Source of the DNA: Candidatus Rubneribacter avistercoris
GTDB lineage: Bacteria; Actinomycetota; Coriobacteriia; Coriobacteriales; Eggerthellaceae
DNA length: 36,069 bases
Assembly (NCBI GenBank): GCA_019115845.1
Contig: DXCU01000044.1
Span: 1 to 36,069, forward strand
Direction: 5' to 3'
The notes under the pieces were generated by a model. That model was not told the origin of the DNA, did no database searches, and saw only the letters and a program-made list of their open reading frames with translations. The position numbers were made by a program, and so were the translations under genes. Below, piece by piece: positions 8,332 to 33,293 of the stretch; position 1 is the first letter of the stretch, and each line of letters starts with the position of its first letter.

Positions 8332-8379
8332 CCTGCGAGCCGCGCCCTGCGGGCAGGAGGATCTCGCACGCGGAAGCCG

Positions 8380-8419
8380 CGCGCCCGGGCGGGACTCCCC
8401 CTCCGCCCGCCCGGGCGCG
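8380..8419. terminator. 14-bp GC hairpin after the flavoprotein gene
   Basis: Arms 8380-8393 and 8406-8419 (CGCGCCCGGGCGGG and its complement) are perfect, with a 12-nt loop, beginning 49 nt past the stop at 8331. There is no U-tract, as with several other end-of-gene hairpins in this window. Terminator role inferred from position. Confidence 0.55.
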
Positions 8420-8435
8420 GCCGGCCGCCCCGCCC

Positions 8436-10625
<2,190 letters not shown>

Positions 10626-10669
10626 GCGAAGGCTCCTTTTGCTCGTGCGGATGGTTCGGTTCGCATGGT

Positions 10670-10675
10670 AGTATA
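10670..10675 (-). promoter_or_regulatory. possible -10 box of the HAD-tgt operon
   Basis: TATACT read on the minus strand lies 45 nt upstream of the HAD start codon. I see no good -35 at 16-18 nt, so this is a weak call. Confidence 0.35.
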
Positions 10676-10777
10676 AGCCACGTCTTCGGGGCGCTGCGCG
10701 AAATCCCCGGCGAAACCCCCGCATCCGCGCTTCCGAACGCGGTCCGCGCAACGGCTTTCGGACGATCCGATGACGAT

Positions 10778-10831
10778 CTTGTCGGTCGAAACGACAAGTT
10801 GCTTATGTATCTTGCCGTTTCGAACGACAAG
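10778..10831. promoter_or_regulatory. two copies of CTTGTCG-N7-CGACAAG operator
   Basis: Dyad 1: CTTGTCG 10778-10784, 7-nt spacer, CGACAAG 10792-10798 (perfect). Dyad 2: CTTGCCG 10811-10817, 7-nt spacer, CGACAAG 10825-10831 (one mismatch). The two start exactly 33 bp apart, about three helical turns, placing them on the same face of DNA. A half-site TTTGTCG follows at 10841-10847. Dyad 2 covers the -35 of the ATPase-queH promoter, so a bound regulator should repress it. Confidence 0.7.
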
Positions 10832-10840
10832 ATGTAGTAT
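10812..10840 (+). promoter_or_regulatory. sigma-70-type promoter of the ATPase-queH operon
   Basis: TTGCCG (10812-10817), 17-nt spacer, TAGTAT (10835-10840), 34 nt before the ATPase ATG. The -35 lies inside the second dyad of the operator pair. Confidence 0.6.
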
Positions 10841-10874
10841 TTTGTCGAAACCGCAGCATGGACGGAGGAGGCGC

Positions 10875-12245
10875 ATGCGCCCCATCATCGGCGAAAAGAT
10901 ACGCGAGTTCTTCTCAGAGGGCGTTCCGGAGGCCTTCGAGCGCGACCTGTCCCTTGGCAGCATCCAACCGCCGGCGCGGGGAAACCTGGTCAACGTCGTT
11001 GTCGGCGTTCGGCGCTGCGGCAAAACCTACCGCCTGTACCAGGAGATGCGCCGCATCGTGTCCGCAGGCTACCCGGAGGCGTCCCTTTTGTACTTCAACT
11101 TCGAGGACGAGCGCCTCAAGCCCTACGACGCCTCCCTGCTCTCGGAGGTGGTCGAGACGTTCTACGCCCTCAACCCCCGCGCCAGGGAGGAGGGGGCGTT
11201 CTTCTTCTTCGACGAGGTGCAGGAGGTGCCCGACTGGGGGCTGTTTCTGCGCCGCATGGTCGACACGGCCAAGGCGACGATCTACGTCACGGGATCGTCG
11301 TCGAAGATGCTCTCGCTCGATATCGCCAGCGAGTTTCGGGGAAGGGCGCTTCCCCGCGAGCTTTTCCCCTTGAGCTTCGCCGAGTACGTGCGGTTCCACG
11401 GGGGCGACGTCCCTCCGCGCGAGGCGCTCGCGGCCGGCGCGCTCACTGCGGGCGAGCGCGCGCTGCTGCGCAGCGCCTGCTCGGACTACCTGGTGCGCGG
11501 GGGGTTCGTTCCCGTGCAGGACCGGGGGCTTTCGGAGTGCGCGCTGCTTTTGCAGGAGTACGCGAACCGCACCGTCAGCTACGACGTGGTCGAGCGGTAC
11601 GGCCTGGCCAACCTCTCCGCCGCCTCGAGCTTCCTTGCGCAGTGCATGGCGTCCTCGGCGCGGGAGCTGTCGGTCAACAAGGTCCATGGGAGATTCCGCA
11701 GCCTCGGTTCGTCGGTGTCCCGCGAGACGCTCTCAAGGCTTCTTGGCTACTACGAAGAGTCGTACCTTCTGTTTTCCGTCCGCGAGTTCTCGCGCGCGCT
11801 CGCGGACAACCCGCGCTCCCCGGCGAAGGTGTACGCGGTGGACCCGGGCATGCTCATGGCGTTCTCCCCCTCTGCGGCGCGTGACGAGGGGCAGCGGCTT
11901 GAAACGGCGGTGTACCTGACGCTTCGGCGCCAGGCCGACCTCGTGCGCCGAGGAAGCGTCTCCCGGGCCCTTCTGGACCGAGGATCGACGCGGCGCGAGG
12001 TTGATTTCGTGGTGGGCGACGCGCTTATGCAGGACGCCTTCCGGCTGGTGCAGTCCTCCACGAGCCTGGCCGACCCCGCCACGCGCAAGCGGGAGCTTGC
12101 GGCGCTGGAAGCGGCCATGTCGGCTTACGGCGTGGAGGAGTCCTGGGTGGTGACGTTGGACGAGCAGGAGACGGTCCAAACCGACCAAGGCGTCGTTCGC
12201 ATCGTCCCCGCCTGGTCATGGCTGTTGGACGGAGGCGAACGATGA
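10875..12245 (+). CDS. AAA-family ATPase with DUF4143 domain
   Basis: A 456-residue member of the AAA_14/DUF4143 family. The Walker A motif is GVRRCGKT (residues 44-51) and Walker B is 'FFFFDEVQEVPDW' near 108-120; a sensor-like 'YVTGSSSKML' follows. The DUF4143 half covers about 200-440 with 'NKVHGRFRSLGSSVSRETL' and a nuclease-like 'REVDFVVGD..RLVQ' in which the usual EVK is replaced, so catalysis there is doubtful. The family is common in prokaryotes, poorly understood, and often sits in accessory DNA. The ATG at 10875 follows GGAGGAG. Its TGA overlaps the queH start (ATGA), making the two translationally coupled. Upstream is a double operator, so expression is probably repressed. Confidence 0.88.
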   Translation: MRPIIGEKIREFFSEGVPEAFERDLSLGSIQPPARGNLVNVVVGVRRCGKTYRLYQEMRRIVSAGYPEASLLYFNFEDERLKPYDASLLSEVVETFYALNPRAREEGAFFFFDEVQEVPDWGLFLRRMVDTAKATIYVTGSSSKMLSLDIASEFRGRALPRELFPLSFAEYVRFHGGDVPPREALAAGALTAGERALLRSACSDYLVRGGFVPVQDRGLSECALLLQEYANRTVSYDVVERYGLANLSAASSFLAQCMASSARELSVNKVHGRFRSLGSSVSRETLSRLLGYYEESYLLFSVREFSRALADNPRSPAKVYAVDPGMLMAFSPSAARDEGQRLETAVYLTLRRQADLVRRGSVSRALLDRGSTRREVDFVVGDALMQDAFRLVQSSTSLADPATRKRELAALEAAMSAYGVEESWVVTLDEQETVQTDQGVVRIVPAWSWLLDGGER

Positions 12246-12994
12246 AATTGCTGCTGCACGCCTGCTGCGGGCCGTGCTCGCTCGAACCTGTGCGGATCCT
12301 GCGAGCGGCCGGGCACGACCTGACCATCCTGTTCGCCAACTCGAACATCGCGCCGGCCGACGAGCACGCGCGCCGCATGCGCGCGCTGCGGGAATGGGCG
12401 GCCGGCGAGGGGCTGCCCGTCGTCGAGGGCGCTTACGACCCTCTGTCCTGGGAGGCGTGCGCGGGACGCGTCGGCGCGGCCGAGCCCGGCAGCGCACGGC
12501 ACGAGGCGCGCTGCCGGGCATGCTACCGCCTGCGGCTTGGCGAAGCGGCGCGCACGGCGGCCGAGCGGGGCTTCGACGGCGTGGGCACCACGCTTTCGGT
12601 AAGCCCCTACCAGTACACCGAGGTCATCCGCGAAGAGCTTGAGCGGGCGGCGGGGCAAGCGGGCGTGCGGGCCGTGTTCGAGGACTTCCGCCCCTTCTAC
12701 GACGAGGCCACGCGCCGCAGCCGCGAGCTGGGCATGTACCGTCAGAACTACTGCGGCTGCCTGTTCTCGCGCGACGAGGCCGCCGCCGAGCGGGAGGCGC
12801 GCAAGGCCGCGCGGCGGGCCGAGCGAAAAGCCGAGAGAAAGATGCGCGCCGACGAGCTGGCCGCCGCCGAGGCCGAGCGAGAGGCGCGGCGGGCCGAGCG
12901 GGCCGCCTACGACGCCAAGCAGGCCAGGAAGCGCGCCGTGCTGAAGGAGCTGCGGAAGCGGGCGCGGGAAGAGGGCGCGCAAGCCGAAAGCTGA
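12242..12994 (+). CDS. queH: epoxyqueuosine reductase QueH
   Basis: A 250-residue protein of the QueH (former DUF208) family, the QueG-unrelated enzyme that reduces epoxyqueuosine in tRNA to queuosine, the last step of the pathway. The N-terminal HACCGPC (Cys8, Cys9, Cys12), 'EARCRACYRLRL' and 'YCGC' provide the conserved cysteines for the metal/cluster site; 'TTLSVSPYQ' is also typical. From about residue 180 the protein ends in a 70-residue tail of Arg, Ala, Glu and Lys ('AEREARKAARRAERKAERKM' and similar), a long charged helix or coiled coil not needed by the family. It overlaps the ATPase gene by four bases and converges on galT 28 nt further on. Confidence 0.93.
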   Translation: MKLLLHACCGPCSLEPVRILRAAGHDLTILFANSNIAPADEHARRMRALREWAAGEGLPVVEGAYDPLSWEACAGRVGAAEPGSARHEARCRACYRLRLGEAARTAAERGFDGVGTTLSVSPYQYTEVIREELERAAGQAGVRAVFEDFRPFYDEATRRSRELGMYRQNYCGCLFSRDEAAAEREARKAARRAERKAERKMRADELAAAEAEREARRAERAAYDAKQARKRAVLKELRKRAREEGAQAES

Positions 12995-13022
12995 GGGCGC
13001 CGCCCCCGCCCCCGCCCGCGCC

Positions 13023-14327
13023 TCACCCGACGCGGCAAAGCTCGCGGGCGAACGCGTCCCAGCCGGCGCGGCCGGCGGGGGTGCGCTTGAACACGCCGAC
13101 GGCCTCGAGCACGGAAACGAACACGCGGGCCACCTCGCGCTTCACGACGGGATGAAACGACCCCTCCCCGCCAGGCCCGCAAGCGAACTTAGCGGCATGG
13201 CCGGCAAGCCGCTCCAGGGCCCAGGGGGCGTGGGGCGCGGCGAGCGGGTCCGACAGCAGCCGCTCGCGCAGATCGTCGGCCGAGCGCGCATGTCCGAGCG
13301 CGCGCTGGACGGCGGGCAGCTCGCGGGCGAGGCGCGCGGGCAGCACGGCCAGGCCCATGGCCTCGATAAGGCCGATGTTCTCCCTCTTGATGTGGTGGAG
13401 ATCCTCCCCGGGATGAAACACGCCCCACGGATGGGCGGCGTCGGCGCGGTTGTTGCGCAGGACGAGGTCGAGGACGTAGCCCTTTTCGGTCTTGCGCGCG
13501 ATGGGGCTGACCGCGTTGTGCGCAACGCCGCCCGAGGCGGCCGCGATGCCGCACGCCTCGCACGAGAACCCGCGCCACGCCTCCATCGTCCGCGCCGCCG
13601 CTCGCTCAAGGGCGCGCCTGTCGGCTGCGGCCAGACGCACGACCGACGCCGGCCAGCGCACCGCGCCGCAGCGCACCGCAGGCTCTCCCGGCAGCTCGAA
13701 GGCACGCTCCACGGGCGCGCGCATGAGCGGGAACACGTGGCGGCCGCCCTGGAAGTGGTCGTGGGAGAGGATGGAGCCGCCCACAATGGGAAGATCGGCG
13801 TTGGAGCCTGCGAAGTAGAACGGGAACAGGTCCACGAAGTCGAGCAGGCGCCCCACGCACGCCGCGTCCACCTTCATGGGACGGTGCTCGGGCGCGAGCG
13901 CGATGCAGTGCTCGGGAAAGTACCCGTACGGCGAGAACTGCAGCCCCCACCGCTCGCCGCCCAGCTCGATGGCCGCGATGCGCAGGCCCGGCTTCGCCGG
14001 ATGCCCGGGCGCGCTGGGAAAGCCCTCGTTCTCCCAGCACAGGTCGCAGCGCGGCACGCGCGCGTCGGCGGGCGGCGCGGCGGCGCGGGCCGCGGCGGCG
14101 ATGTCGCGCGGGTCCTTTTCCGGCTTGGCCAGGTTGATGGAGCACTCGAGCCGGCCGTAGGGGCTTACCGCCGTCCAGCGGACGGCGCGCGCCGCGGCCG
14201 CCTCGTCCAGGTAGCCGCTCGCCACGCCCAGGTCGTGCAGGTAGCGCACGGCCCGCTCCGCGTCCTTGGCGCGCAGCGCCGCGAACGCCGAGCGCACCTC
14301 TTCGGGCGCAGGCAGGCGCTCCCCCAT
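13023..14327 (-). CDS. galT: UDP-glucose--hexose-1-phosphate uridylyltransferase, class II
   Basis: A 434-residue GalT of the class II type, exchanging galactose-1-phosphate for the glucose-1-phosphate of UDP-glucose in the Leloir pathway. 'DLPIVGGSILSHDHFQGG' (near residue 180) matches the class II active-site pattern with its HxH. 'SPYGRLECSINLAKPEKDP' and 'CDLCWENEGF' occur before it. It is somewhat shorter than the commonly near-490-residue class II proteins, mainly in the N-terminal part. The start ATG at 14327 overlaps the galK stop by one base (TGATG), so the two are translationally coupled. The open frame extends upstream through galK in another frame, which is not coding. Confidence 0.94.
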   Translation of the reverse strand: MGERLPAPEEVRSAFAALRAKDAERAVRYLHDLGVASGYLDEAAAARAVRWTAVSPYGRLECSINLAKPEKDPRDIAAAARAAAPPADARVPRCDLCWENEGFPSAPGHPAKPGLRIAAIELGGERWGLQFSPYGYFPEHCIALAPEHRPMKVDAACVGRLLDFVDLFPFYFAGSNADLPIVGGSILSHDHFQGGRHVFPLMRAPVERAFELPGEPAVRCGAVRWPASVVRLAAADRRALERAAARTMEAWRGFSCEACGIAAASGGVAHNAVSPIARKTEKGYVLDLVLRNNRADAAHPWGVFHPGEDLHHIKRENIGLIEAMGLAVLPARLARELPAVQRALGHARSADDLRERLLSDPLAAPHAPWALERLAGHAAKFACGPGGEGSFHPVVKREVARVFVSVLEAVGVFKRTPAGRAGWDAFARELCRVG

Positions 14328-15565
14328 CAGGCGATCCTTTCCGCGCACGCGCCCTGGGGGCTCACGACCACGGGCAGGCACGCCTCGTAGCCCAAAAGCC
14401 CGTCCATCGAGCGGCGGAACTCCTCGGCCTTCGCCTGCGGCGCGAACGCCAGCACGCTGCCGCCGAAGCCGCCGCCGTGGATGCGGTACGCGCCCCGCTC
14501 CGCGCCGTCCGAGCCGCCGTCGAGCAGGTGCGCGCACAGCGCGAGCACCACCGCCGCCGGCTGGCGCCCGCCTGCGGCGTCCCCTCGCGGCGACACGTTC
14601 TGCAGAAACTGCGCCGACGACGCGCCCGACGCGCGCACAAGCCTCAGAAACGCCGCGAAGTCGCCCGCTTCGAGCGCCCGCCTCTGCGCGCGCACGCGCC
14701 GCTCCTCCTCGAAGTAGTGGATCGCCCGCAGGGCCGCGCGGTCGCCCAGCTTCGCGCGCACGTCCGCAAGCGAGCGCAAAAGCGCGGGGTACCCCACGTC
14801 CTGAAGCCGCCTTTCGCCAAGGAGCCGCGCCACGGCGAACATGTCGGCGGGAACGGCGTTGAACTCGTCGGTGTAGCGCGAGTGGTCGCACCGGCAATCC
14901 ACGAGAAACGCCGCGTGCCCGCAGGACGAAAGGTCGAGCGGAAGCCGGCTCACCTGCGGCGGATCGTCCGCGAAGTCGAGCGCCACCACACCCCCGTGCG
15001 CGCTCGCCAGCTGGTCCTGCGCGCCCGACGGCTTGCCGAAGTAGGCGCCCTCCGCGCGCATGCCCTCAAGCGCGAGCGCCGTGGGGTCGAACGAGGCCCT
15101 CGGCGCAGGCTCGCAGACCGCCCGGATGACCGCCCCCACGAGCATCTCGAACGCCGCCGACGACGACACGCCCAGTCCCACGGGAATGTCCGAGCATGTG
15201 ACCAGGTCAAAGCCGCGCAATCGACCGCCTGCGCGCGCGTAGGCCGCCATCATGCCCCGCACGAGCGCGCTCGACGCGCCGAACTCCGCCTCCCGCGGCC
15301 CAAGGTCGCCCAAGCGGATGCGCGCCTCGCCGAAGCCGTCCATGAGCACGCGCGCCTCGTCTGTCCCGTTGGGCGCGGCAAGCGCGCAGGCGCGCCGGTC
15401 GATGGCCGCCGAAATGGTGCATCCTCCCTGATGGTCGGTATGGTTTCCCGCCAGCTCCACGCGTCCGGGCGCGGAGGCGAGCGCAAGCGGCCCGCGCGCC
15501 TCGCCAAACCGCGCGCAAAACAGCTCGCGCAGCCTTCGCTCGGCAGCCTTCGCAACACCCCTCAT
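14327..15565 (-). CDS. galK: galactokinase
   Basis: A 412-residue GHMP kinase that phosphorylates galactose at C1. The galactokinase signature reads GRVELAGNHTDHQGG (usual form GRxNLIGEHTDYxxG, with E to N). The ATP loop is 'IPVGLGVSSSAAFEMLVG' and the third GHMP motif 'IHGGGFGGSVLAF'. 'LVDCRCDHSRYTDEFNAVP' lies in the middle. Start: ATG at 15565, which overlaps the stop of the GH2 gene as ATGA; GGGAAAGGG precedes it. A GTG/ATG further upstream in the frame lies inside the GH2 gene and is not favoured. The E-to-N change is tolerated in several lineages, but a different sugar substrate cannot be excluded. Confidence 0.94.
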   Translation of the reverse strand: MRGVAKAAERRLRELFCARFGEARGPLALASAPGRVELAGNHTDHQGGCTISAAIDRRACALAAPNGTDEARVLMDGFGEARIRLGDLGPREAEFGASSALVRGMMAAYARAGGRLRGFDLVTCSDIPVGLGVSSSAAFEMLVGAVIRAVCEPAPRASFDPTALALEGMRAEGAYFGKPSGAQDQLASAHGGVVALDFADDPPQVSRLPLDLSSCGHAAFLVDCRCDHSRYTDEFNAVPADMFAVARLLGERRLQDVGYPALLRSLADVRAKLGDRAALRAIHYFEEERRVRAQRRALEAGDFAAFLRLVRASGASSAQFLQNVSPRGDAAGGRQPAAVVLALCAHLLDGGSDGAERGAYRIHGGGFGGSVLAFAPQAKAEEFRRSMDGLLGYEACLPVVVSPQGACAERIA

Positions 15566-17391
15566 GCGCCCTTTCCCTCCTCGAGCTTGCATACGCGCCG
15601 GTCATAGGTGAGCAGCCCGTTCGTCTCCTCCTCCACGTCCGAGAGCTGCGTGTACACAAACCCCGCAAGCCCTTGGCCCTCCAGCGCGCAAGCGCGATCG
15701 AGCGTCTCGCGCACGGCCCGGCGAAACGACGCGAGGTCGGCGCAGCTCTCGTAGCCATACGACGTGGGAAGCGAGCTGTGCCCAGGCAGGTGGCAGGAAA
15801 GCCCGCCGAACTCCGAGAGCAGAAACGCCCGCGCCGGGCGCGCCTTGTCGCGGTACACCTCAAGGGGTCGGAAGTAGTTGTGCACGCTGAAGAAGTCGCC
15901 GCAGCGCTGGTCGTACCACCCGCTCGTCGCGTCGATGGGCCGTAAGGGGTCCAGGCCGCGCACAAGCTTGACGGCCGCGCGCGCGTCGAACTGGCCCCAT
16001 CCCTCGTTGAACAGCGACCACATCGCCACCGACGGATGGTCCCGCAGAAGCTCCACCGCACCGGCGCACGTTCGCGTCCATTCGTCGCGGAAAGCCGCGC
16101 TCCCAGCGCCCAAAGCGGCGCGATGGGACGGCGAGTCGTCGGCGAAGCGGTCCCACGAGCTGCGGAAGAGCGTCGGCTTGTAGCTTGTGCGCCACGTGCT
16201 GGGAACCGACCCGCCGCTCACCATGTCCTGGCACACGAGCATGCCCAAACGGTCGCAGTGGTAATAGAAGCGGCCGGCCTCCACCTTGAGATGCTTGCGC
16301 AGCAAATTGAAGCCGAGGCGCTTCATCGCGCGGATGTCGGAGGCCATCGCCTCGTCGGAGGGCGCGGTCATGAGGCCGTCGGGCCAGTAGCCCTGGTCGA
16401 GCACGCCGCGCACAAACAGCGGCTCTCCGTTGAGGAAGAACCGCCGCACGCCCCGCGCGTCCTCGCCCACCGACACGGTGCGAAACGCGCAGTAACTGGC
16501 CACGCGGTCGTCTCCGTACGAAAGCTCCAGGTCGTAAAGGTGAGGGTCCTCCAAACTCCACAGGCGCGGGACGCCCACCTCCACCGAGAGCGCATGCGTC
16601 CCCGCCGAGGCCATGGCCGAGGCCCGCCCCACCTCCCTGCCGCCGTCGAGCACGCGCGCGGAAAGCGGCAGCGCCGGCCCCGCGCCCTCCACCTGCACGG
16701 TCAGCACCACCCGCCCCTCGGCGGGGCGCGCCTCGGCCGCAAGCGACGCGATGCGCCGCACCCCCACCGCCTCCAGCCACACCGTCTGCCAGATGCCGCT
16801 TTGCGCCGTGTACCAGATGCCGCCGCGCGCCCGGCGCTGCTTCCCGCGCGGCTGCACGCCCGCGTCGCCGGGGTCGTACGCGCAAAGCGCAAGCTCGTTT
16901 TCCCCATCGCGCAAAGCGTCGGTCACGTCGAACGAGAACGGCAGGTAGCCGCCCACATGCTCGCCCACGCGCACGCCGTTCACCAGGCAGGAGCATGCCC
17001 AATCCACCGCCTCGAAATGCAGGAGCACCCGCTCGCCCTCGGGCGCCGCAAACGTTCGGCGGTACCAGGCAAGCTCGTCGGGGCCCACCTGCCGGCCCAC
17101 GCCCGAAAGCGGCGCCTCGGGCGAGAACGGCACCCGGATGCGCTCGGAAAACTCCGCCGGCGGCCGGGCGTCGCGCCACGCATCCGCCGCGCCCTCGCAG
17201 GAGACGACGGCGAAATCCCACCACCCGTCAAGCGGCGCGAACGACGCGCGCGCGAACCGCGGGCGCGGATGGGGCGTCGCGCGCTCCTCCCCCGCCGCTA
17301 TCAGCTCGCCCCATTCGGTGAGAAGCGGCCGCAGCTCCGCCTGCCCGGGGCTTCGCGGCGCGCTGGCCAGCGCACGCCTCAGATCCAGCAT
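15562..17391 (-). CDS. glycoside hydrolase family 2 (beta-galactosidase-like)
   Basis: A 609-residue GH2 enzyme without signal peptide, so cytoplasmic. It has the N-terminal jelly-roll ('WYRRTFAAPEGERVLLHFEAVD'-like strand region near 110-130), an immunoglobulin-like middle domain and a C-terminal TIM barrel. The acid/base Glu lies in 'MWSLFNEGWGQFD' (near 461) and the nucleophile in 'LLSEFGGLSCH' (near 526). It is shorter than LacZ and closer to the beta-glucuronidase-sized branch. Start: ATG at 17391, preceded by AAGGAGG; the in-frame GTG at 17397 overlaps that ribosome site. Its stop overlaps galK, and galT follows, so a beta-galactoside substrate is the likeliest. Confidence 0.88.
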   Translation of the reverse strand: MLDLRRALASAPRSPGQAELRPLLTEWGELIAAGEERATPHPRPRFARASFAPLDGWWDFAVVSCEGAADAWRDARPPAEFSERIRVPFSPEAPLSGVGRQVGPDELAWYRRTFAAPEGERVLLHFEAVDWACSCLVNGVRVGEHVGGYLPFSFDVTDALRDGENELALCAYDPGDAGVQPRGKQRRARGGIWYTAQSGIWQTVWLEAVGVRRIASLAAEARPAEGRVVLTVQVEGAGPALPLSARVLDGGREVGRASAMASAGTHALSVEVGVPRLWSLEDPHLYDLELSYGDDRVASYCAFRTVSVGEDARGVRRFFLNGEPLFVRGVLDQGYWPDGLMTAPSDEAMASDIRAMKRLGFNLLRKHLKVEAGRFYYHCDRLGMLVCQDMVSGGSVPSTWRTSYKPTLFRSSWDRFADDSPSHRAALGAGSAAFRDEWTRTCAGAVELLRDHPSVAMWSLFNEGWGQFDARAAVKLVRGLDPLRPIDATSGWYDQRCGDFFSVHNYFRPLEVYRDKARPARAFLLSEFGGLSCHLPGHSSLPTSYGYESCADLASFRRAVRETLDRACALEGQGLAGFVYTQLSDVEEETNGLLTYDRRVCKLEEGKGA

Positions 17392-23802: not shown

Positions 23803-24267
23803 ATGAAGGGAAACCGGGAACTCGTAGACGCCCTGAACAGCCTGCTCGCAGGTGAGCTCACAGCCATCAACCAGTACATGGTGCACGCCGAGATGTGCGA
23901 GGACTGGGGATACGCCCGTTTAAGCGACAACTTCAAGAAGCGCGCCATCACCGAGATGAGGCACGCCGAGAAGCTGATCGAGCGCATCCTGTTCCTCGAG
24001 GGAACCCCCGTCGTGTCCAACCTCAACGACATCCGCATTGGAAAAGCCGTCCCCCAGCAAATCGACAACGACCACAAGCTGGAAGTGGACACGGTCAGGG
24101 ACTACAACGAGGCCATCGTTTTGGCCGGCACGGTGCTCGACTACGCCACGCGCGACGTCCTCGAAGGCATACTGCGCGACGAGGACCGCCACGTCGACGA
24201 GCTTGAGGAGCTGCAAGACCAGATCGAGCAGATGACGCTTCCCACGTTCCTCTCCACGCAGAACTGA
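23803..24267 (+). CDS. bfr: bacterioferritin
   Basis: A 154-residue four-helix-bundle bacterioferritin, which assembles into a 24-subunit shell that oxidises and stores iron. All ferroxidase ligands sit at the classical numbers: Glu18, Glu51, His54, Glu94, Glu127 and His130. Met52, the heme ligand at the subunit interface, is also present ('AITEMRHAEKLIERILFLEG'), so it should bind heme rather than being a plain ferritin. Length is standard. ATG at 23803 follows AAGGAG. Single gene, divergent from yebC; no bacterioferritin-associated ferredoxin is next to it. Confidence 0.96.
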   Translation: MKGNRELVDALNSLLAGELTAINQYMVHAEMCEDWGYARLSDNFKKRAITEMRHAEKLIERILFLEGTPVVSNLNDIRIGKAVPQQIDNDHKLEVDTVRDYNEAIVLAGTVLDYATRDVLEGILRDEDRHVDELEELQDQIEQMTLPTFLSTQN

Positions 24268-24324
24268 CGCGCCGCCGCCCGCCCGCATCCCCCTTCCTTT
24301 CGCGAATATTGCGCAAAACCGCAT

Positions 24325-24351
24325 AGGTTGTTCATTTTTATTAAACAACCT
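24325..24351. promoter_or_regulatory. inverted repeat around the -35 region of the activase gene
   Basis: AGGTTGTT (24325-24332) and AACAACCT (24344-24351) are perfect 8-bp arms with an 11-nt AT-rich spacer. The dyad ends 6 nt before the TATAAT box, so a bound protein would block polymerase. The TetR-family regulator encoded at the end of the same operon is the natural candidate; that link is inferred. Confidence 0.6.
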
Positions 24352-24357
24352 GTTGCA

Positions 24358-24363
24358 TATAAT
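24358..24363 (+). promoter_or_regulatory. -10 box of the activase-TetR operon
   Basis: Perfect TATAAT, 39 nt before the ATG at 24403. The -35 at 17 nt would be TTTTTA, poor, which suits a promoter needing or blocked by a regulator. Confidence 0.6.
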
Positions 24364-24402
24364 CGGGAAAGCAGTTGTATCGTCGCCAAGGTGGGAAGGT
24401 GT

Positions 24403-27400
24403 ATGGAACAAGCAAGACGGCGCCCGGGAGCATCGCCCAAGACCGTCCACGTGGGCATCGACGTGGGATCCACCACGACCAAAGCGGTCGCCCTCGATCC
24501 GAGCACGGGAGACGTGTTGTTCTCGCGCTACGCCCGCCACGGCGCGCTTCAGGCGCGAAGCGTGCTCGACGCCCTCGGGGAAGCGGCGGCGCGCCTTTCC
24601 GGCGCGCGCATGCGGGTGGCGCTGTGCGGATCGGGCGGCGGCGCCATCGCCGAGCGGCTGGGTGTGCCGTTCGTCCAAGAGGTGGTGGCGGGCGCGGCGG
24701 CCGTGCAGGAGCTGCATCCCCAGGCACGCTGCGCCATCGAGCTGGGCGGCCAGGACGCCAAGATGGTGTTCTTCCGCGAAAACGAGGCCACCGGCAAGCT
24801 TGAAGTGGCCGACATGCGCATGAACGGCAGCTGCGCGGGCGGCACGGGCGCGTTTCTGGACGAGATGGCCGCCGTGCTCAAGGTGCCCGTGGAGCGGTTC
24901 GACGCGCTGGCCGCCAAGGGCTCGACGGTCTACGACATATCGGGCCGCTGCGGCGTGTACGCCAAAACGGACATCCAGCCCCTGCTCAACCAGGGGGCGG
25001 CGCGCGAGGATCTGGCGCTCTCGGCGCTGCACGCCGTGGCCAAGCAGACGATCGGGGGGCTTGCGCAGGGCCTTTCCATCGAGGCGCCCGTCGTGTTCGA
25101 GGGCGGCCCGCTCACGTTCAACCCCACGCTCGTGCGCGTGTTCGCCGAACGGCTGGGGCTCGCAGACGGCGAGGCGCTGCTGCCCGACCGCCCCGAGGCC
25201 ATCGTGGCCCGGGGAGCGGCGCTTGCGCTTTCCGGCATGTTCGCCGATAAGGACGCGACCCTCGACGCGCGCGAGGCCGCCCGTCTTCTGGAGGGGTTTC
25301 GGGACGAGGAAGCCTCCGGCCCCGCGCCGGCGCCCTTGTTCGCCACCGAGGAGGAGCGCGCGGCCTTCCGCACCCGCCACGCCCGGCCCGCCCCGCCCAA
25401 CCTGGACCGGGCGGCGGCGCGGGCGCGCGAGCAGGGCGGGACGCTGCGCTGCTACCTGGGCATCGACTCAGGCAGCACCACCACCAAGCTCGCCTTGGTG
25501 GACGAGGAGGGAAAGCTTGCCCACAGCTTCTACGCGCGCAACGACGGACGGCCCCTCGACGTGGCGCGCGACGCGCTGCTGGCCATGCGCGACGCCTTCC
25601 GCACCCGCGGCGTGGAGCTGGACGTGGCCGCCTGCGGCACCACCGGCTACGGGGAGCGGCTGCTCCAGCGAGCCTTCCACGCCGACTACCACACGGTGGA
25701 GACGGTCGCCCACGCCCGCGCGGCCACGCGCTGCGTTCCCGACGCCACGTTCGTCCTCGACATAGGCGGCCAGGACATGAAGGCCATCCGGCTGGAGGAC
25801 GGCGTGATCGTCGACATCGTGGTGAACGAGGCGTGCTCGAGCGGCTGCGGGTCGTTCCTTGAGAACTTCGCGGAATCGCTGGGCATCCCGGCGGAGGGCA
25901 TCGCCGAGGCGGCGTTTCGCTCGAAGCGCCCGGCCGCCCTCGGCAGCCGCTGCACCGTGTTCATGAACAGCTCCATCGTAAGCGAGCAGCGCAACGGCCG
26001 CACGCCCGACGACATCATGGCGGGGCTGGCGCGCTCCATCGTGGAGAACGTGTTCACGAAGGTGGTGCGCGTGGCGAACCTGGACAGCCTGGGAAGCCGC
26101 ATCGTGGTGCAGGGCGGCACGTTCGAAAACGACGCGGTCCTGCGCGCGCTTGAGCTTCACCTGGGCCGCGAGGTGGTGCGCGCGCCGCACCCGGGGCTTA
26201 TGGGGGCGCTCGGCGCGGCGCTTCTGGCCAAGGAGCGCGCCGAAGAGGCGGCGGCAGCCGGTGCGGGGCGGCCCTCCTCCTTCATCGGCCTGGACGCGCT
26301 CGAGGGCTTCTCCTACGAGCGGCGCGCGAACCTGCCCTGCCCGTTTTGCCAGAACCGCTGCAGCCGCACCGTGGTCGAGTTCTCCGACGGCACCTCGTGG
26401 GTGACCGGCAACCGCTGCGAGCGCGGCGAGGTGACCGGCGACCCGAAGGACCCGGCCGTGCGAAGGTTTGCGCGCGCGGCGGCGCGACGGACGGCGCCCG
26501 ACCTGTTCGCCGAGCGCGAGCGCCTGCTTCTGCGCGAGGCCCCCGTGACGCCGGTGGCACCCGCGCGCAACCTGACCATCGGCATCCCGCTTGTGCTGGC
26601 GTTCTGGGACGAGCTGCCGTTTTGGTCGGCGCTGTTCCGCGCGCTTGGCTGCGCGGTGCGCGTGTCGGGCCCTAGCACGCGCGCGCTCTACGAGCGGGGG
26701 CTGCCCTCCGTGGCCTCCGACACCGTGTGCTTCCCCGCCAAGCTGGCGCACGGACACGTGCAGAGCCTGGTGGATGCCGGGGTTGATCGTATCTTCATGC
26801 CCATCGTCACCACCACGCCCACGGAAAACCGCGCGGACACCAGCGTGTCGCGCTGCGCCGTGGTGAAAGGCTACCCCCTGGTGGTGCGCACCTCCGACAA
26901 CCCCGAGGGGCGTTGCGGCGTGCCCTTCGACACGCCGCTTTTCCACTGGTACACCGAAGCCGACCGCAACCGGCAGCTCGCATCCTACCTGCAGGAGCGC
27001 TTCGGGGTGGACGCCGGGAAGGCGCAGGAGGCCATCGCGCAGGCCGACGCTGCGCAGGCGGCCTTCCGAGACGACCTGCTGGCCCTCGGCGCGAAGGCGA
27101 TGGCGCAAGCGGAGCGCGACAAAACGTGGGCGGTGGTGTTGGCCTCGCGCCCCTACCACAACGACCCCCTGGTCAACCACGACCTGCCGCGGATGTTTGC
27201 CGAGCAGGGCATAGCCGTGCTGCCGCCCGACGCCGTGCCCGGCGCGAACGAGGCGGACCTCGCGCGCAGCCGCCTGGACATCGTGAACAACTTCCACGCC
27301 CGCATGCTGGGCTGCGCGCTGCTGGCCGCCGAAAGCCCCGTCCTTGAATTCGTACAGCTTGTAAGCTTCGGTTGCGGACACGACGCCTACCTTTCCGATG

Positions 27401-28989
27401 AGATTGCACGTCTCATGAAGGAGAGCTCCGGCAAGGTGCCGCTCATCCTCAAGGTGGACGAGAGCGACGCGACCGGCCCGCTGCGCATCCGCGTGCGCTC
27501 GTTCGTGGAGACGGTGGCTATGCGTCGTACGCGCGAGACGATCCCCGCCGTGCGCGAACTGCCCGACCCCTATCCCGTCAAATATGAGCGCGCCGACCGC
27601 AAGCGCAAGGTGGTGCTGGTGCCCAACACCTCGCACGCGTTCTGCCGGCTCATGAGCGCCGCCATGCGCAAGCAGGGCATCGCGGCCGAGCCTTTGGACG
27701 TGGGCCGCGAGGAGGCCATCGCCTTGGGCAAGAAGTACGTGCACAACGACATCTGCTTCCCCGCCCAGATGACGGTGGGCGAGGCGCTGGCCGCGCTCGA
27801 AAGCGGGCGCTACGACGACGCGGAGGTGGCCATCGGCACCGGCAAGTACGTGGGCGACTGCCGGCTGACGCACTATTGCGCGCTTTTGCGCAAGGCGCTT
27901 GACGACGCGGGGTACGCGCACGTGCCCATCATCACCAACGACGACGCCGACGACCACAACCTGCACCCCGGCTTCAAGTTCAGCCTGGCGTCGAGCATCC
28001 GCATCGCCGCGGCCCTGCCCATGATAGACGCGCTGGAGGAGCTTGTGCGCAAGATCCGCCCCTACGAGCTTGAACCCGGCAGCGCCAACGCCGCCTTCGA
28101 CGCGGCGCTCGACGCGGTCATAGAGGGCATCGAGCGGAACGGGGCGCGCGGGGCGGCGCGGGGCTTCGAGCGCGCCATCGACATCATGGCGCAGGTGCGC
28201 TACGACCGCTCCCGGCCGCGCCCGCGCGTGCTCATCGTGGGCGAGTACCTGCTCAACTTCCACCCTGGCGCCAACCGCGACATCGAGGCGTACCTGGAAC
28301 GCAACGGCATGGAGGTCATCGAGGCGCGCATGACCGACGTCATCCGCAAGACCTATTTTTACCAGGACGCGCAGGTGAAGGAGTTCGGCGTGGAGCGCCC
28401 CCTTGCGCAGAAGGCGTGGCTTAACGTGGCGAACCGGCTGTTCGAGGCTGCGCATGATCTGACCGACCGCATAGCGGCGGCCCACCCGCTCTACGAGCCG
28501 CCGTGCCGTCTGCCCAAGCTCGCGCAGGAAAGCGACCCCATAGTCCACCGCAGCTTCGACGCGGGCGAGGGCATCCTCATCCCCGCGGAGATCCTGCACC
28601 ATGCCGCGCGCGGGTGCCGCTCCTTCGTCATCCTGCAGCCTTTCGGCTGCCTGCCCAACCACGTGGTGGGGCGCGGCATAGCGGGGCAGCTGCGCGAGCG
28701 CTACCCCGACGCGCAGATACTTGCGCTGGACTACGATCCGGACGTGAGCTTCGCCAACGTGGAGAACCGCCTGCAGATGCTCATCATGGCCGCCCGCGAC
28801 GCGCAAGCGGCAGAGGAGCCGGCCGCGGGCGCCGACAGGACGGACGCGGACTTTGGCGGGACGGGCGACGGGCCTCCCAGCGCGCACGCGGCCGTGCTCA
28901 AGCGCGGCGCGGACGCGATTTCGCGCCTCGGCTGGGACGGCGAGGCGCAGCGGCGCGTGGCGTGCGCGGGGAGGGAAAGCCATGGGTAG
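24403..28989 (+). CDS. giant acyl-CoA dehydratase activase / HgdB-like fusion protein
   Basis: A 1528-residue protein with two BadF/BadG/HgdC-type ASKHA ATPase modules followed by DUF2229 and a dehydratase-like region. Module 1 has 'GIDVGSTTTKAVAL' (residues 18-31) and 'GSCAGGTGAF'; module 2 has 'GIDSGSTTTKLAL' (near 353) and 'ACSSGCGSFLENFAESLGI'. A Cys cluster CPFCQNRC with a later NRCERG (near 645-670) opens DUF2229, and 'NDICFPAQMTVGEAL' and 'GDCRLTHYCALLRKAL' mark the HgdB-like part. Classical activators use an Fe-S cluster and ATP to inject one electron into a 2-hydroxyacyl-CoA dehydratase. Large fusions like this are frequent in anaerobes but their substrate is unknown. The last about 65 residues are low-complexity. 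ATG at 24403 follows GGGAAGG; it overlaps the TetR gene by 8 nt. Confidence 0.92.
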   Translation: MEQARRRPGASPKTVHVGIDVGSTTTKAVALDPSTGDVLFSRYARHGALQARSVLDALGEAAARLSGARMRVALCGSGGGAIAERLGVPFVQEVVAGAAAVQELHPQARCAIELGGQDAKMVFFRENEATGKLEVADMRMNGSCAGGTGAFLDEMAAVLKVPVERFDALAAKGSTVYDISGRCGVYAKTDIQPLLNQGAAREDLALSALHAVAKQTIGGLAQGLSIEAPVVFEGGPLTFNPTLVRVFAERLGLADGEALLPDRPEAIVARGAALALSGMFADKDATLDAREAARLLEGFRDEEASGPAPAPLFATEEERAAFRTRHARPAPPNLDRAAARAREQGGTLRCYLGIDSGSTTTKLALVDEEGKLAHSFYARNDGRPLDVARDALLAMRDAFRTRGVELDVAACGTTGYGERLLQRAFHADYHTVETVAHARAATRCVPDATFVLDIGGQDMKAIRLEDGVIVDIVVNEACSSGCGSFLENFAESLGIPAEGIAEAAFRSKRPAALGSRCTVFMNSSIVSEQRNGRTPDDIMAGLARSIVENVFTKVVRVANLDSLGSRIVVQGGTFENDAVLRALELHLGREVVRAPHPGLMGALGAALLAKERAEEAAAAGAGRPSSFIGLDALEGFSYERRANLPCPFCQNRCSRTVVEFSDGTSWVTGNRCERGEVTGDPKDPAVRRFARAAARRTAPDLFAERERLLLREAPVTPVAPARNLTIGIPLVLAFWDELPFWSALFRALGCAVRVSGPSTRALYERGLPSVASDTVCFPAKLAHGHVQSLVDAGVDRIFMPIVTTTPTENRADTSVSRCAVVKGYPLVVRTSDNPEGRCGVPFDTPLFHWYTEADRNRQLASYLQERFGVDAGKAQEAIAQADAAQAAFRDDLLALGAKAMAQAERDKTWAVVLASRPYHNDPLVNHDLPRMFAEQGIAVLPPDAVPGANEADLARSRLDIVNNFHARMLGCALLAAESPVLEFVQLVSFGCGHDAYLSDEIARLMKESSGKVPLILKVDESDATGPLRIRVRSFVETVAMRRTRETIPAVRELPDPYPVKYERADRKRKVVLVPNTSHAFCRLMSAAMRKQGIAAEPLDVGREEAIALGKKYVHNDICFPAQMTVGEALAALESGRYDDAEVAIGTGKYVGDCRLTHYCALLRKALDDAGYAHVPIITNDDADDHNLHPGFKFSLASSIRIAAALPMIDALEELVRKIRPYELEPGSANAAFDAALDAVIEGIERNGARGAARGFERAIDIMAQVRYDRSRPRPRVLIVGEYLLNFHPGANRDIEAYLERNGMEVIEARMTDVIRKTYFYQDAQVKEFGVERPLAQKAWLNVANRLFEAAHDLTDRIAAAHPLYEPPCRLPKLAQESDPIVHRSFDAGEGILIPAEILHHAARGCRSFVILQPFGCLPNHVVGRGIAGQLRERYPDAQILALDYDPDVSFANVENRLQMLIMAARDAQAAEEPAAGADRTDADFGGTGDGPPSAHAAVLKRGADAISRLGWDGEAQRRVACAGRESHG

Positions 28990-29629
28990 GCCGCGCAAGG
29001 ACGCGAACGCGCCCGACGCCCAGCAGCGGCTCGTCGGCGCGTTTTGGCTGCTTTTGGAGACGAACCGCATAGGCGAGCTGACCGTGAGCACGCTCTGCGC
29101 GCAGGCGGGCTGCAACCGCGGCACGTTCTACTACCACTTCGCCGACCTGGACGCCCTTGTGTGCGGGGCTATCGAGCAGGAGCTTTTGGGCCGCGACTCC
29201 TTGGCCGCCGCCGTGTTCGGCCTGCTCTCCGGCACCGGGGAGGCGCCGCTTGCCGACATGGCGGACGAGCGGCGCATGCGCAGGATGGGCCTGCTTTTGG
29301 AGCAGGGGGGCACCGATCTTGTGACGGCCAAGATCAAGGAGGTCATCCTGGGCATGTGGCACGCGGTGCTGCGCCCCGACGGATCGCCTCTGTCCGCCGA
29401 CGCGCGCATCATCTTGGAGTTCGCCGCAAGCGGGATGATGGGCTTTCTGGCCCACCGCCTGTGCGCCTGCCGCGCCGGCGCGCCGGCGGAAGACCCCTCG
29501 CCTTGGCTCATGCGGCACTCCTCGGCCTTTTTGCTGGAGAACCTGTGCCGGGCCGAGGGGCTTGCCGAGGCCGACGTGCTGGCCCGCCTGGAGACGGTCG
29601 CCCGCTACTCGCAGGTCCTGCGTTCGTAG
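28982..29629 (+). CDS. TetR-family transcriptional regulator
   Basis: A 215-residue TetR/AcrR-type regulator. The N-terminal helix-turn-helix covers about residues 12-58 with 'ELTVSTLCAQAGCNRGTFYY' and the usual 'YYHFADLDALVCGAI'. The C-terminal ligand domain is helical and not assignable to a subfamily by eye. ATG at 28982 overlaps the end of the activase gene by 8 nt, so both are cotranscribed and it probably controls its own operon through the dyad at 24325-24351. Ligand unknown. The frame extends upstream inside the activase gene but without a start context. Confidence 0.9.
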   Translation: MGRPRKDANAPDAQQRLVGAFWLLLETNRIGELTVSTLCAQAGCNRGTFYYHFADLDALVCGAIEQELLGRDSLAAAVFGLLSGTGEAPLADMADERRMRRMGLLLEQGGTDLVTAKIKEVILGMWHAVLRPDGSPLSADARIILEFAASGMMGFLAHRLCACRAGAPAEDPSPWLMRHSSAFLLENLCRAEGLAEADVLARLETVARYSQVLRS

Positions 29630-31835: not shown

Positions 31836-32906
31836 CTACGACAGTCTCTGCTTCTCCTCTGCCCTGATCGAACGCGCATCGTCGACAGTCACCGAATTCG
31901 GGAACATGCCGAACAGCGATTTCATCTCTGCTTCCTTATTGTTCTGCCGAGCCGCGGTTTCGTCAGCGGAACGCGCCGGATGCAGCACGCGCAGGGCAGC
32001 AGGATCAATGGCGACATCGAAGGAGCGGGCCTCTATGCGCTCGCCGTCGGTTTGGGCGGGAGGGGCCTCGTCGAACTCAACGTGAAGCGTGCGGAAGCGG
32101 CGCAGCTCGATCTGCGGGAAGCCCGTGTGTTTGCCCGACTTCGCGCGCAGGAAAATGTAGGCGGCCCGCGCCGCGCCGACGGGCGGGTGCGCGATGCACG
32201 CGTCAAGCTCGCCGTCGTCCAGGCGCGCGTCCGGGCAGATCTTGAACCCGCTCCCGTAGTAGGGACCCACCTGCGCCGCGAACGTGATGGACCGGCCGCG
32301 CACCGGCTCGCCACCGTCGAAGGATGCCGTGTAGGCGCGCGCGTCCAGGTGGTGGAGCAGCTGGTCGAACCCCGAGGCCATGTACAGGGCCGCGCCGCTT
32401 CGGCCCGTGCGCTCCCGCCGCTTCATCGTGTCGAGCGCGATGGCCGCGTCCAGCCCGAACGACAGCGTCTCCACGAACCATCGGCCGTTCACGCGCCCGA
32501 CGTCCACCGGACGCGCCTCGGACTCCAGCAGCCGCGCGCAGGCCGCCTCAACCTCGAACGGCATGCCCAGCGAGCGCGCGTAGTCATTGCCAGAGCCTGC
32601 GGGAACCACGCCGAACGCCGGACGGCGGTCGGCCGGGCGGCGCATCAGCCCATTGGCCACTTCATGCACCACGCCGTCTCCCCCAACGGCCACCACGGCC
32701 GCGCAGCCCTCCGCGCGCTCGGCTATCTCGGAGGCGTGCCGCGGGCCGAGCGTCTTCGCCACCACCACGGCGTCCTCCCCCAGCCGCGCGCGCAGCAGGG
32801 CCGCCGCTCGATCCGCCGCCTTCGCGCCGCGCCCGCTTTGCGCGGCCGGGTTCGCGATGACCAAGACCTTGCCGCCGCCCGCAAGCGCGCCCGCTTCCTG
32901 CGCCAT
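31836..32906 (-). CDS. diacylglycerol kinase family lipid kinase
   Basis: A 356-residue protein of the DagK/YegS/sphingosine-kinase family, ATP-dependent kinases acting on membrane lipids. 'VLVIANPAAQSGRGAK' (near 14-29) opens the catalytic domain, 'VAVGGDGVVHEVANGL' carries the GGDG nucleotide loop and 'VVPAGSGNDYARSLG' follows. The C-terminal half is the beta-sandwich typical of the family. It is about 50 residues longer than many DgkB-type proteins, mostly at the C-terminus. ATG at 32906 follows AAGGAGG. Single gene. The lipid substrate cannot be told from sequence. Confidence 0.92.
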   Translation of the reverse strand: MAQEAGALAGGGKVLVIANPAAQSGRGAKAADRAAALLRARLGEDAVVVAKTLGPRHASEIAERAEGCAAVVAVGGDGVVHEVANGLMRRPADRRPAFGVVPAGSGNDYARSLGMPFEVEAACARLLESEARPVDVGRVNGRWFVETLSFGLDAAIALDTMKRRERTGRSGAALYMASGFDQLLHHLDARAYTASFDGGEPVRGRSITFAAQVGPYYGSGFKICPDARLDDGELDACIAHPPVGAARAAYIFLRAKSGKHTGFPQIELRRFRTLHVEFDEAPPAQTDGERIEARSFDVAIDPAALRVLHPARSADETAARQNNKEAEMKSLFGMFPNSVTVDDARSIRAEEKQRLS

Positions 32907-33293
32907 GGCGCCCGCCTCCTTCCGCGTCCCGCTTTCGTGCCCGCATCCAGTATAGCGGACGCGGGGACGAGGCGCCCGCCGTGCGCAGGGACTTGCGCAT
33001 GAGCCGGCCCAAACCGAGCGCGGCATGCATCCAAGCCCTTCCTCCGCAACGTCGGGCCGACGGCAGACAGGGATCGCCCCTTCTAAGCCGCCGTTGGCAC
33101 AGGTCCTGCACCCGCCTCTCCGCTAAACCAGCGTCGACGCGGACCCCTCCGGAGGTGGCTCGGCGAGGGCCCCCGGTGGCAGAGGGCGGCGGCTCGGCGA
33201 GGACCGAACGAGACCCGCCGAACCGCCTTAGTGCCGACGCTCGGTCGAGCCGGGATCGTCGAAGCTGCTTCCGTCCTCGGCCAATCGCGATCT
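32907..33293. other. 387-base gap with repeat copy B
   Basis: No gene that I can support. TATA-like bases near 32951 may belong to the lipid kinase promoter. From 33085 to about 33245 it carries the dispersed repeat shared with 891-1006. The last 50 bases lead into the end of the permease gene. Confidence 0.5.
33085..33245. repeat. dispersed intergenic repeat, copy B
   Basis: 33120-33173 aligns to the complement of 891-942 with about 42 of 54 positions equal by my hand alignment, and CCGCCGTTGGC is shared just before it. CCCGCCGAACC followed by a CCTT block also recurs at about 33214 in the opposite orientation, so copy B is itself partly palindromic. Copies are too diverged to be recent. 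Confidence 0.5.

Follow-up and report, generated by a model that had tools for sequence, protein, structure and literature searches.

The closest described relatives of the locus discussed here are the bacterial plasmalogen synthases. Escherichia coli forms plasmalogens upon expression of a fused PlsA protein, taken from Enterococcus faecalis, Lactococcus cremoris or Bifidobacterium longum, or of the plsA-plsR gene pair of Clostridium perfringens; the parts of these proteins were named Act1, Act2, Red1 and Red2 (PMC12838417). Ger, a PlsA homologue with a mass of ~159 kDa, forms saturated alkyl ethers (PMC11150832). A review lists pls genes in the orders Eggerthellales and Coriobacteriales (PMC9702350). 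Here we describe a giant gene, together with a TetR-type regulator gene, from Candidatus Rubneribacter avistercoris (family Eggerthellaceae). Both are located on contig DXCU01000044.1 of assembly GCA_019115845.1, of which the entire stretch from position 1 to 36,069 was analyzed (hereafter the window). The giant gene rather probably encodes an ATP-driven lipid ester reductase of the plasmalogen-synthase family, which would convert the sn-1 acyl ester of a phospholipid into a vinyl ether and would be repressed by TetR through a pair of operators. The enzyme system is of a known kind; the sister clade to which the protein belongs is uncharacterised, and the candidate TetR double operator is newly defined.

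The giant gene (24403-28989, + strand, as all coding features of the locus given below) starts with ATG and encodes 1528 amino acids. The initial annotation had described a protein with two activator modules and a DUF2229 part, and the open reading frame, Pfam (two BcrAD_BadFG stretches, 2e-70; DUF2229, 2.3e-61) and NCBIfam (CoA_E_activ matched twice) agree with it. The first activase module, Act1 (24442-25257; residues ~14-285), carries the motifs GIDVGSTTTK and ELGGQD and the invariant cysteines C144 and C183. The second, Act2 (25453-26235; residues 351-611), matches structure 1hux (E 1e-33) and carries GIDSGSTTTK, DIGGQD and the invariant C478, C482 and C517; the ATPase motifs of both modules are intact. 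Between the activases and Red1 lies an invariant CxxCxxxC...C motif (C646, C649, C653 and C672; 26338-26418), which is probably an extra Fe-S site. Red1 (26491-27519; residues 697-1039) includes DUF2229 and contains the invariant C776, C818 and C991, while Red2 (27592-28824; residues 1064-1474), the counterpart of the separate PlsR, contains C1118, C1153 and C1416. Altogether, 15 cysteines are invariant across 104 aligned homologues from the two clades described below (two in Act1, three in Act2, four in the linker and three each in Red1 and Red2).

C-terminal to DUF2229 no Pfam match was obtained in the giant protein, and a sequence-profile search of this part against the Protein Data Bank (PDB) delivered no real relative and no structure of a 2-hydroxyacyl-CoA dehydratase (HAD) or benzoyl-CoA reductase (BCR). 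Consequently, structure prediction was employed. The AlphaFold model of residues 625-1490 has a mean predicted local distance difference test score (pLDDT) of 92.6, and Red1 in this model resembles 7yzm, 3o3m and 3o3n (VIA Z 14.2) as well as 6eno (14.1); its matches to the double-cubane cluster protein DCCP and to HAD and BzdNO subunits have a root-mean-square deviation (rmsd) of 3.9-4.1 over 266-272 residues. A model of residues 1052-1486 alone, for which one alignment row from a plasmid record was left out, reached a pLDDT of 93.7. The best structural match of Red2 is 3o3n_B (VIA Z 13.7, rmsd 4.5 over 284 residues), and Foldseek relates it to DCCP, HAD and BzdNO with prob 1.00. For Red1 and likewise for Red2, the ten top VIA rows are all HAD, BCR or DCCP. 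In the predicted models, the BCR/HAD subunit fold is present in both C-terminal halves, in line with the HgdB-like region of the initial annotation. Two activase modules are followed by two reduction/dehydration domains, which is the order of the plasmalogen synthase family.

With this fold and three invariant cysteines in each half, the seemingly missing dehydratase alpha and beta halves lie inside the chain. The initial annotation had found no dehydratase, CoA-transferase or electron-transfer flavoprotein (ETF) gene next to the giant gene; indeed none was recognised among the scanned neighbours, while dehydratase-like halves are part of the protein itself. It had proposed that a single chain, with no separate subunits, carries out the ATP-driven reduction. 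This agrees with the anatomy of two activases, two HAD-like halves and putative cluster cysteines invariant in all 104 homologues; the C-terminal cysteines whose absence would have spoken against the proposal are present. In BzdO three cysteines bind the cluster, while in BzdN six cysteines ligate an [8Fe-9S] cluster (PMC11971306). Each half of the window protein shows the BzdO pattern, unlike BzdN, and a DCCP-like double-cubane cluster was rejected because of this cysteine count. Thus, although DCCP is among the nearest folds, a small-molecule reductase of the DCCP kind is hardly credible. An acyl-CoA dehydratase or reductase with built-in activator, as the initial annotation implied, would suit the HAD- and BCR-type fold and activase. 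However, the full-length relatives of known function, PlsA and Ger, act on membrane phospholipid esters (PMC12838417; PMC11150832), neither a CoA-transferase nor an ETF gene was recognised among the neighbours scanned, and the C-terminal sequence profiles match no HAD or BCR structure. We thus regard an acyl-CoA substrate as very improbable.

Fusion of these modules had appeared peculiar at first, a view that does not hold: giant homologues were found in 131 of the 138 genomes of the window's family and in all 92 of good quality, and fused PlsA has the identical layout (PMC12838417). Further homologues were found in Lachnospiraceae, Spirochaetota, Fibrobacterota, Enterococcus and lactobacilli. 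In Fusobacterium the chain is cut after DUF2229 into two adjacent genes, which corresponds to the plsA-plsR arrangement. The genome of the window itself carries three versions: besides the giant gene of the window, contig C41 holds a second giant gene, and on contig C46 the parts are split. The C41 protein (86661-91811; L134 6162-11312, - strand) comprises 1717 amino acids, with a long insert between the activases and Red1 relative to the window protein. Segment by segment, it is ~46-61% identical to proteins of Listeria, Enterococcus and Caloramator and 39-51% to that of Fusobacterium. The window protein in contrast shares 34-38% identity with the proteins of these four genera (35-38% in full-length alignments to Enterococcus and Listeria), yet 54% with a protein from Spirochaetia. 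In a 70-row tree, which contains no Ger sequence, the clade of the window protein and the PlsA clade are split with a Shimodaira-Hasegawa-like approximate likelihood ratio test (SH-aLRT) value of 100, and 23 positions are fixed differently between them. The window protein does not group with those of Enterococcus, Listeria and Fusobacterium but belongs to the sister clade. As long branches were flagged during tree building, the existence of this split is better secured than its depth.

Based on identities, tree and fixed positions, the C41 protein is the PlsA orthologue, while the gene of the window represents a second type. This second type was counted from our homologue table in at least 49 of the 138 family genomes and is lacking in both congeners found. 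The window protein is an accessory paralogue, the core PlsA of the family being encoded on C41. Beyond the family, the second clade spreads to Lachnospiraceae, Spirochaetota and Fibrobacterota, and several genomes show only the second type. A Mediterraneibacter metagenome-assembled genome (L061) has both, a second-type giant gene (6971-11383, +) and a PlsA-type giant gene (12354-16643, -), about 1 kb apart and convergent. The split version on C46 (7453-10806; L135) consists of a DUF2229 piece, a C-terminal piece and a single activase, and resembles three annotated genes in Monoglobus (L154). A congener (contig C4, 6603-9575; L015, L019, L020) has a further long frame of 1497 amino acids, in which two stretches resemble activases and one resembles DUF2229, at only 25-42% identity; perhaps it is another type of this family. 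PlsA homologues without explanation are noted elsewhere, too (PMC13274423). Our literature searches delivered nothing useful on DUF2229 and no paper that joins fusion, activase and double-cubane.

Plasmalogen synthesis is the best-supported candidate function of the window protein. It has the four-part layout of fused PlsA verified by expression and a similar length, and both the distribution in Fibrobacter and the dimethyl acetals, a plasmalogen marker, of tabulated Eggerthellaceae strains (PMC12494484) point in the same direction. Among the 41 genomes of the genus to which a Fibrobacter succinogenes genome belongs, 36 possess the second type, with complete copies scoring 1420-1457 bits. None of the 41 yielded a PlsA-type match, while the same query elsewhere finds full-length PlsA types at ≥860 bits. 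Bacteroides succinogenes is the organism now called Fibrobacter succinogenes. According to a report from 1963, as it is cited in a review, Bacteroides succinogenes is rich in plasmenylethanolamine (PMC9702350). By correlation, the combination of the second type only with abundant plasmenylethanolamine suggests that the clade of the window protein can probably make plasmalogens unaided.

Several points weigh against this interpretation. The Fibrobacter argument is correlative, draws mostly on draft genomes and fails if an unrelated plasmalogen enzyme exists there. The dimethyl acetals of the Eggerthellaceae strains tabulated in PMC12494484 fit the near-universal C41 type; since the genome already has a PlsA orthologue, the window copy is not needed for this family-wide trait. 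In addition, we found no assayed member of the window-protein clade in the literature, and Ger and PlsA are at present indistinguishable by primary sequence (PMC13274423). As an alternative, the window protein may be a Ger-type glycerol ester reductase; its products would then be saturated alkyl ethers, either at sn-1 or at sn-1 and sn-2, and no vinyl ethers. Ger is, as mentioned, a PlsA homologue of similar mass, homologues with two activases have been linked to Ger (PMC13274423), and the presence of PlsA and a second clade in one genome fits two distinct products. Yet the two-activase criterion does not discriminate here. A Pfam domain count was rejected as a means to separate Ger from PlsA, because every full-length giant protein scanned, including the Enterococcus and Listeria PlsA types, has two activase stretches. 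In the Thermotoga maritima control genome, PF09989 matches are present. Since Fibrobacter, with the window-protein clade only, makes a plasmenyl lipid according to the account cited above, we consider a Ger-type function unlikely, though an alkyl-ether product elsewhere within the clade may be compatible with the Fibrobacter correlation.

A lipid or acyl ester reductase with another substrate, differing in head group or chain type or being a glycolipid or lipid precursor, and switched by TetR when this substrate appears, is a further option. It would account for the 23 positions of the sister clade fixed unlike those of the PlsA clade, for the accessory distribution within the family and for the dedicated TetR. 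In contrast, no recurrent metabolic partner gene was seen beside the giant genes, and PlsA has the catalytic cysteines and most of the remaining invariant residues as well. This option appears doubtful, and slightly more so than a Ger-type function. Besides TetR, no neighbour gene that tracks the window-protein clade was found, most neighbour clusters being without annotation; a neighbour set common to nine loci belongs to the PlsA side. Beyond plasmalogen synthesis by the window protein as such, we tentatively suggest that its clade comprises a second, functionally distinct set of ATP-driven lipid ester reductases. In Fibrobacter and some Spirochaetota, plasmalogens or ether lipids would be made by this clade alone. 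Gut Coriobacteriia and Lachnospiraceae would use it in addition, in many cases under TetR control, to remodel their membranes on demand.

The regulator gene (28982-29629) encodes a putative TetR-family repressor of 215 amino acids. Its ATG, at 28982, overlaps the TAG stop of the giant gene by 8 bases; the overlap as such had been noted initially. The PF00440 (TetR_N) match has an E-value of 1.4e-4 and, with 22.0 bits, falls below the cut-off of 24, while a Collinsella homologue in the equivalent place is annotated as TetR/AcrR. Relatives of this TetR take three positions. In many second-type loci they lie downstream and overlap; in PlsA-type loci of the window's genus they precede the giant gene in the same orientation; and in Enterococcus and Loigolactobacillus, where only an iterated profile recovered them, they precede it in opposite orientation. 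The regulator EF1326, beside EF1327, was described as absent from strict anaerobes (PMC9702350). The TetR-bearing loci of Eggerthellaceae, Collinsella and Anaerostipes contradict this statement and show that facultative anaerobes are not alone in having TetR beside such genes. A Thermoanaerobacter kivui strain with ~37% instead of 17% dimethyl acetals carries a fixed mutation in a TetR (TKV_c02640 A97V; PMC10601643, Table 1).

Upstream of the giant gene, a -10 box TATAAT (24358-24363, + strand) was read from the sequence; a consensus scanner reported no full sigma-70 promoter, probably owing to a weak -35 element. The start of this box is overlapped by the main candidate TetR operator, TATTAAACAACCTGTTGCATA (24339-24359), whose core ACA-ACC-TGT occupies 24345-24353. 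Of 16 upstream regions from TetR-linked loci, 13 contain the palindrome ACA-N3-TGT, compared with a mean of 1.19 and a maximum of 5 among 300 shuffles; 12 of the 16 have it together with three or more of six flanking pairs, against 0.22 expected. Second-type loci without a nearby TetR have ACA-N3-TGT in 5 of 52 cases versus 2.1 expected. With a leave-one-out position weight matrix (PWM), the site ranks first of 386 positions in all 13 loci, the window included, a ranking that is partly circular because the sites were picked by their core. A held-out test free of this circularity gave a site above every shuffle in five of five loci with adjacent TetR, one of which (Collinsella) is nearly identical to a training locus.

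In 6 of 11 TetR-linked second-type loci, the site has a weaker partner at a distance of exactly 22 bp (shuffles: mean 0.25, maximum 2), and this spacing recurs in two held-out loci. In the window the partner is the degenerate candidate AACCGCATAGGTTGTTCATTT (24317-24337), second-best by the leave-one-out PWM with its centre at -22 from the right site. The double ACA-N3-TGT site is thus a newly defined candidate TetR operator from sequence comparison. The dyad AGGTTGTT-N11-AACAACCT next to TATAAT, initially taken as the operator, is exact and unique in the window (24325-24351; 0 of 100 dinucleotide shuffles), yet it is not the operator unit: it consists of the inner half-sites of the two 22-bp-spaced sites. 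The long dyad was rejected as a conserved unit, as TTGTT-N11-AACAA recurs only in locus L029. The proposed TetR control at the promoter thereby gains support from the conservation of ACA-N3-TGT at TetR-linked loci, and the position of the operator suggests that TetR acts as a repressor. In the genome of the window, the PlsA-type gene (L134) lacks an ACA-N3-TGT site with at least four flanking pairs, while the PlsA-type copy of a congener (L161) has one at 6845. Strong sites also occur upstream of the giant gene in L140, L142, L044 and L045, where no related TetR was found in the DNA covered; there, a regulator encoded at another place of the genome may act on them.

One might envision the following mechanism. 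Act1 and Act2 would form a pseudo-dimer with one [4Fe-4S] cluster on C144, C183, C478 and C517, and ATP use would drive low-potential electrons via the CxxCxxxC site into the two HAD-like halves with their three cysteines each. There the ester carbonyl would be reduced and water lost, yielding plasmalogen from ordinary phospholipid. TetR would sit on the operator pair, over the promoter spacer and the -10 box, and repress the operon and, since its gene is part of this operon, itself, until a signal, perhaps lipid or redox, releases it.

The neighbours scanned are unrelated to the giant gene. Upstream they encode bacterioferritin, YebC, RuvA and RuvB; downstream there are genes for a CmpB-type ABC protein, a D-2-hydroxyacid dehydrogenase and a YegS-type lipid kinase. 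The bacterioferritin-like gene (23803-24267, +) is located immediately 5' of the operator and co-oriented. The YegS-type diacylglycerol/lipid kinase gene (31836-33026, -) lies less than 3 kb from the TetR gene in opposite orientation, which may be a lipid link or chance.

Taken together, a likely function is provided for a family still named 'acyl-CoA dehydratase activase' in databases. The results also point to the enzyme behind the plasmalogens reported in 1963 for Fibrobacter (Bacteroides) succinogenes. If our interpretation is true, the plasmalogen content of gut anaerobes would be partly inducible, and the precise candidate double operator, as a short probe together with the small TetR protein, would now allow a search for the inducer.

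The locus shares features with several known systems and differs from each of them. Class I BCR and HAD with their activase (3o3n, 8s02, 9gai) share the predicted fold of both C-terminal halves and the activase fold and motifs, while they consist of separate subunits and act on CoA esters. DCCP (6eno, 7yyl) shares the fold as well, but holds a double-cubane cluster (six cysteine ligands in its BzdN counterpart), unlike the window protein with three invariant cysteines per half. Ger of T. maritima and Desulfatibacillum alkenivorans is PlsA-like, of similar size and likewise acts on ester lipids, yet its product is an alkyl ether (PMC11150832). PlsA-PlsR of C. perfringens has identical domains in identical order, distributed over two genes instead of one (PMC9702350; PMC12838417). 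Closest is the fused PlsA of Enterococcus, Lactococcus and Bifidobacterium (PMC12838417), which unites Act1, Act2, Red1 and Red2 in one chain of ~1400-1640 amino acids with conserved cysteines and, in Enterococcus, also has a TetR gene alongside. In contrast to it, the window protein belongs to a separate, fully supported clade and shares 35-38% identity with the types from Enterococcus and Listeria, its TetR gene is downstream, co-oriented and overlapping rather than upstream, and it coexists with a PlsA orthologue in the same genome.

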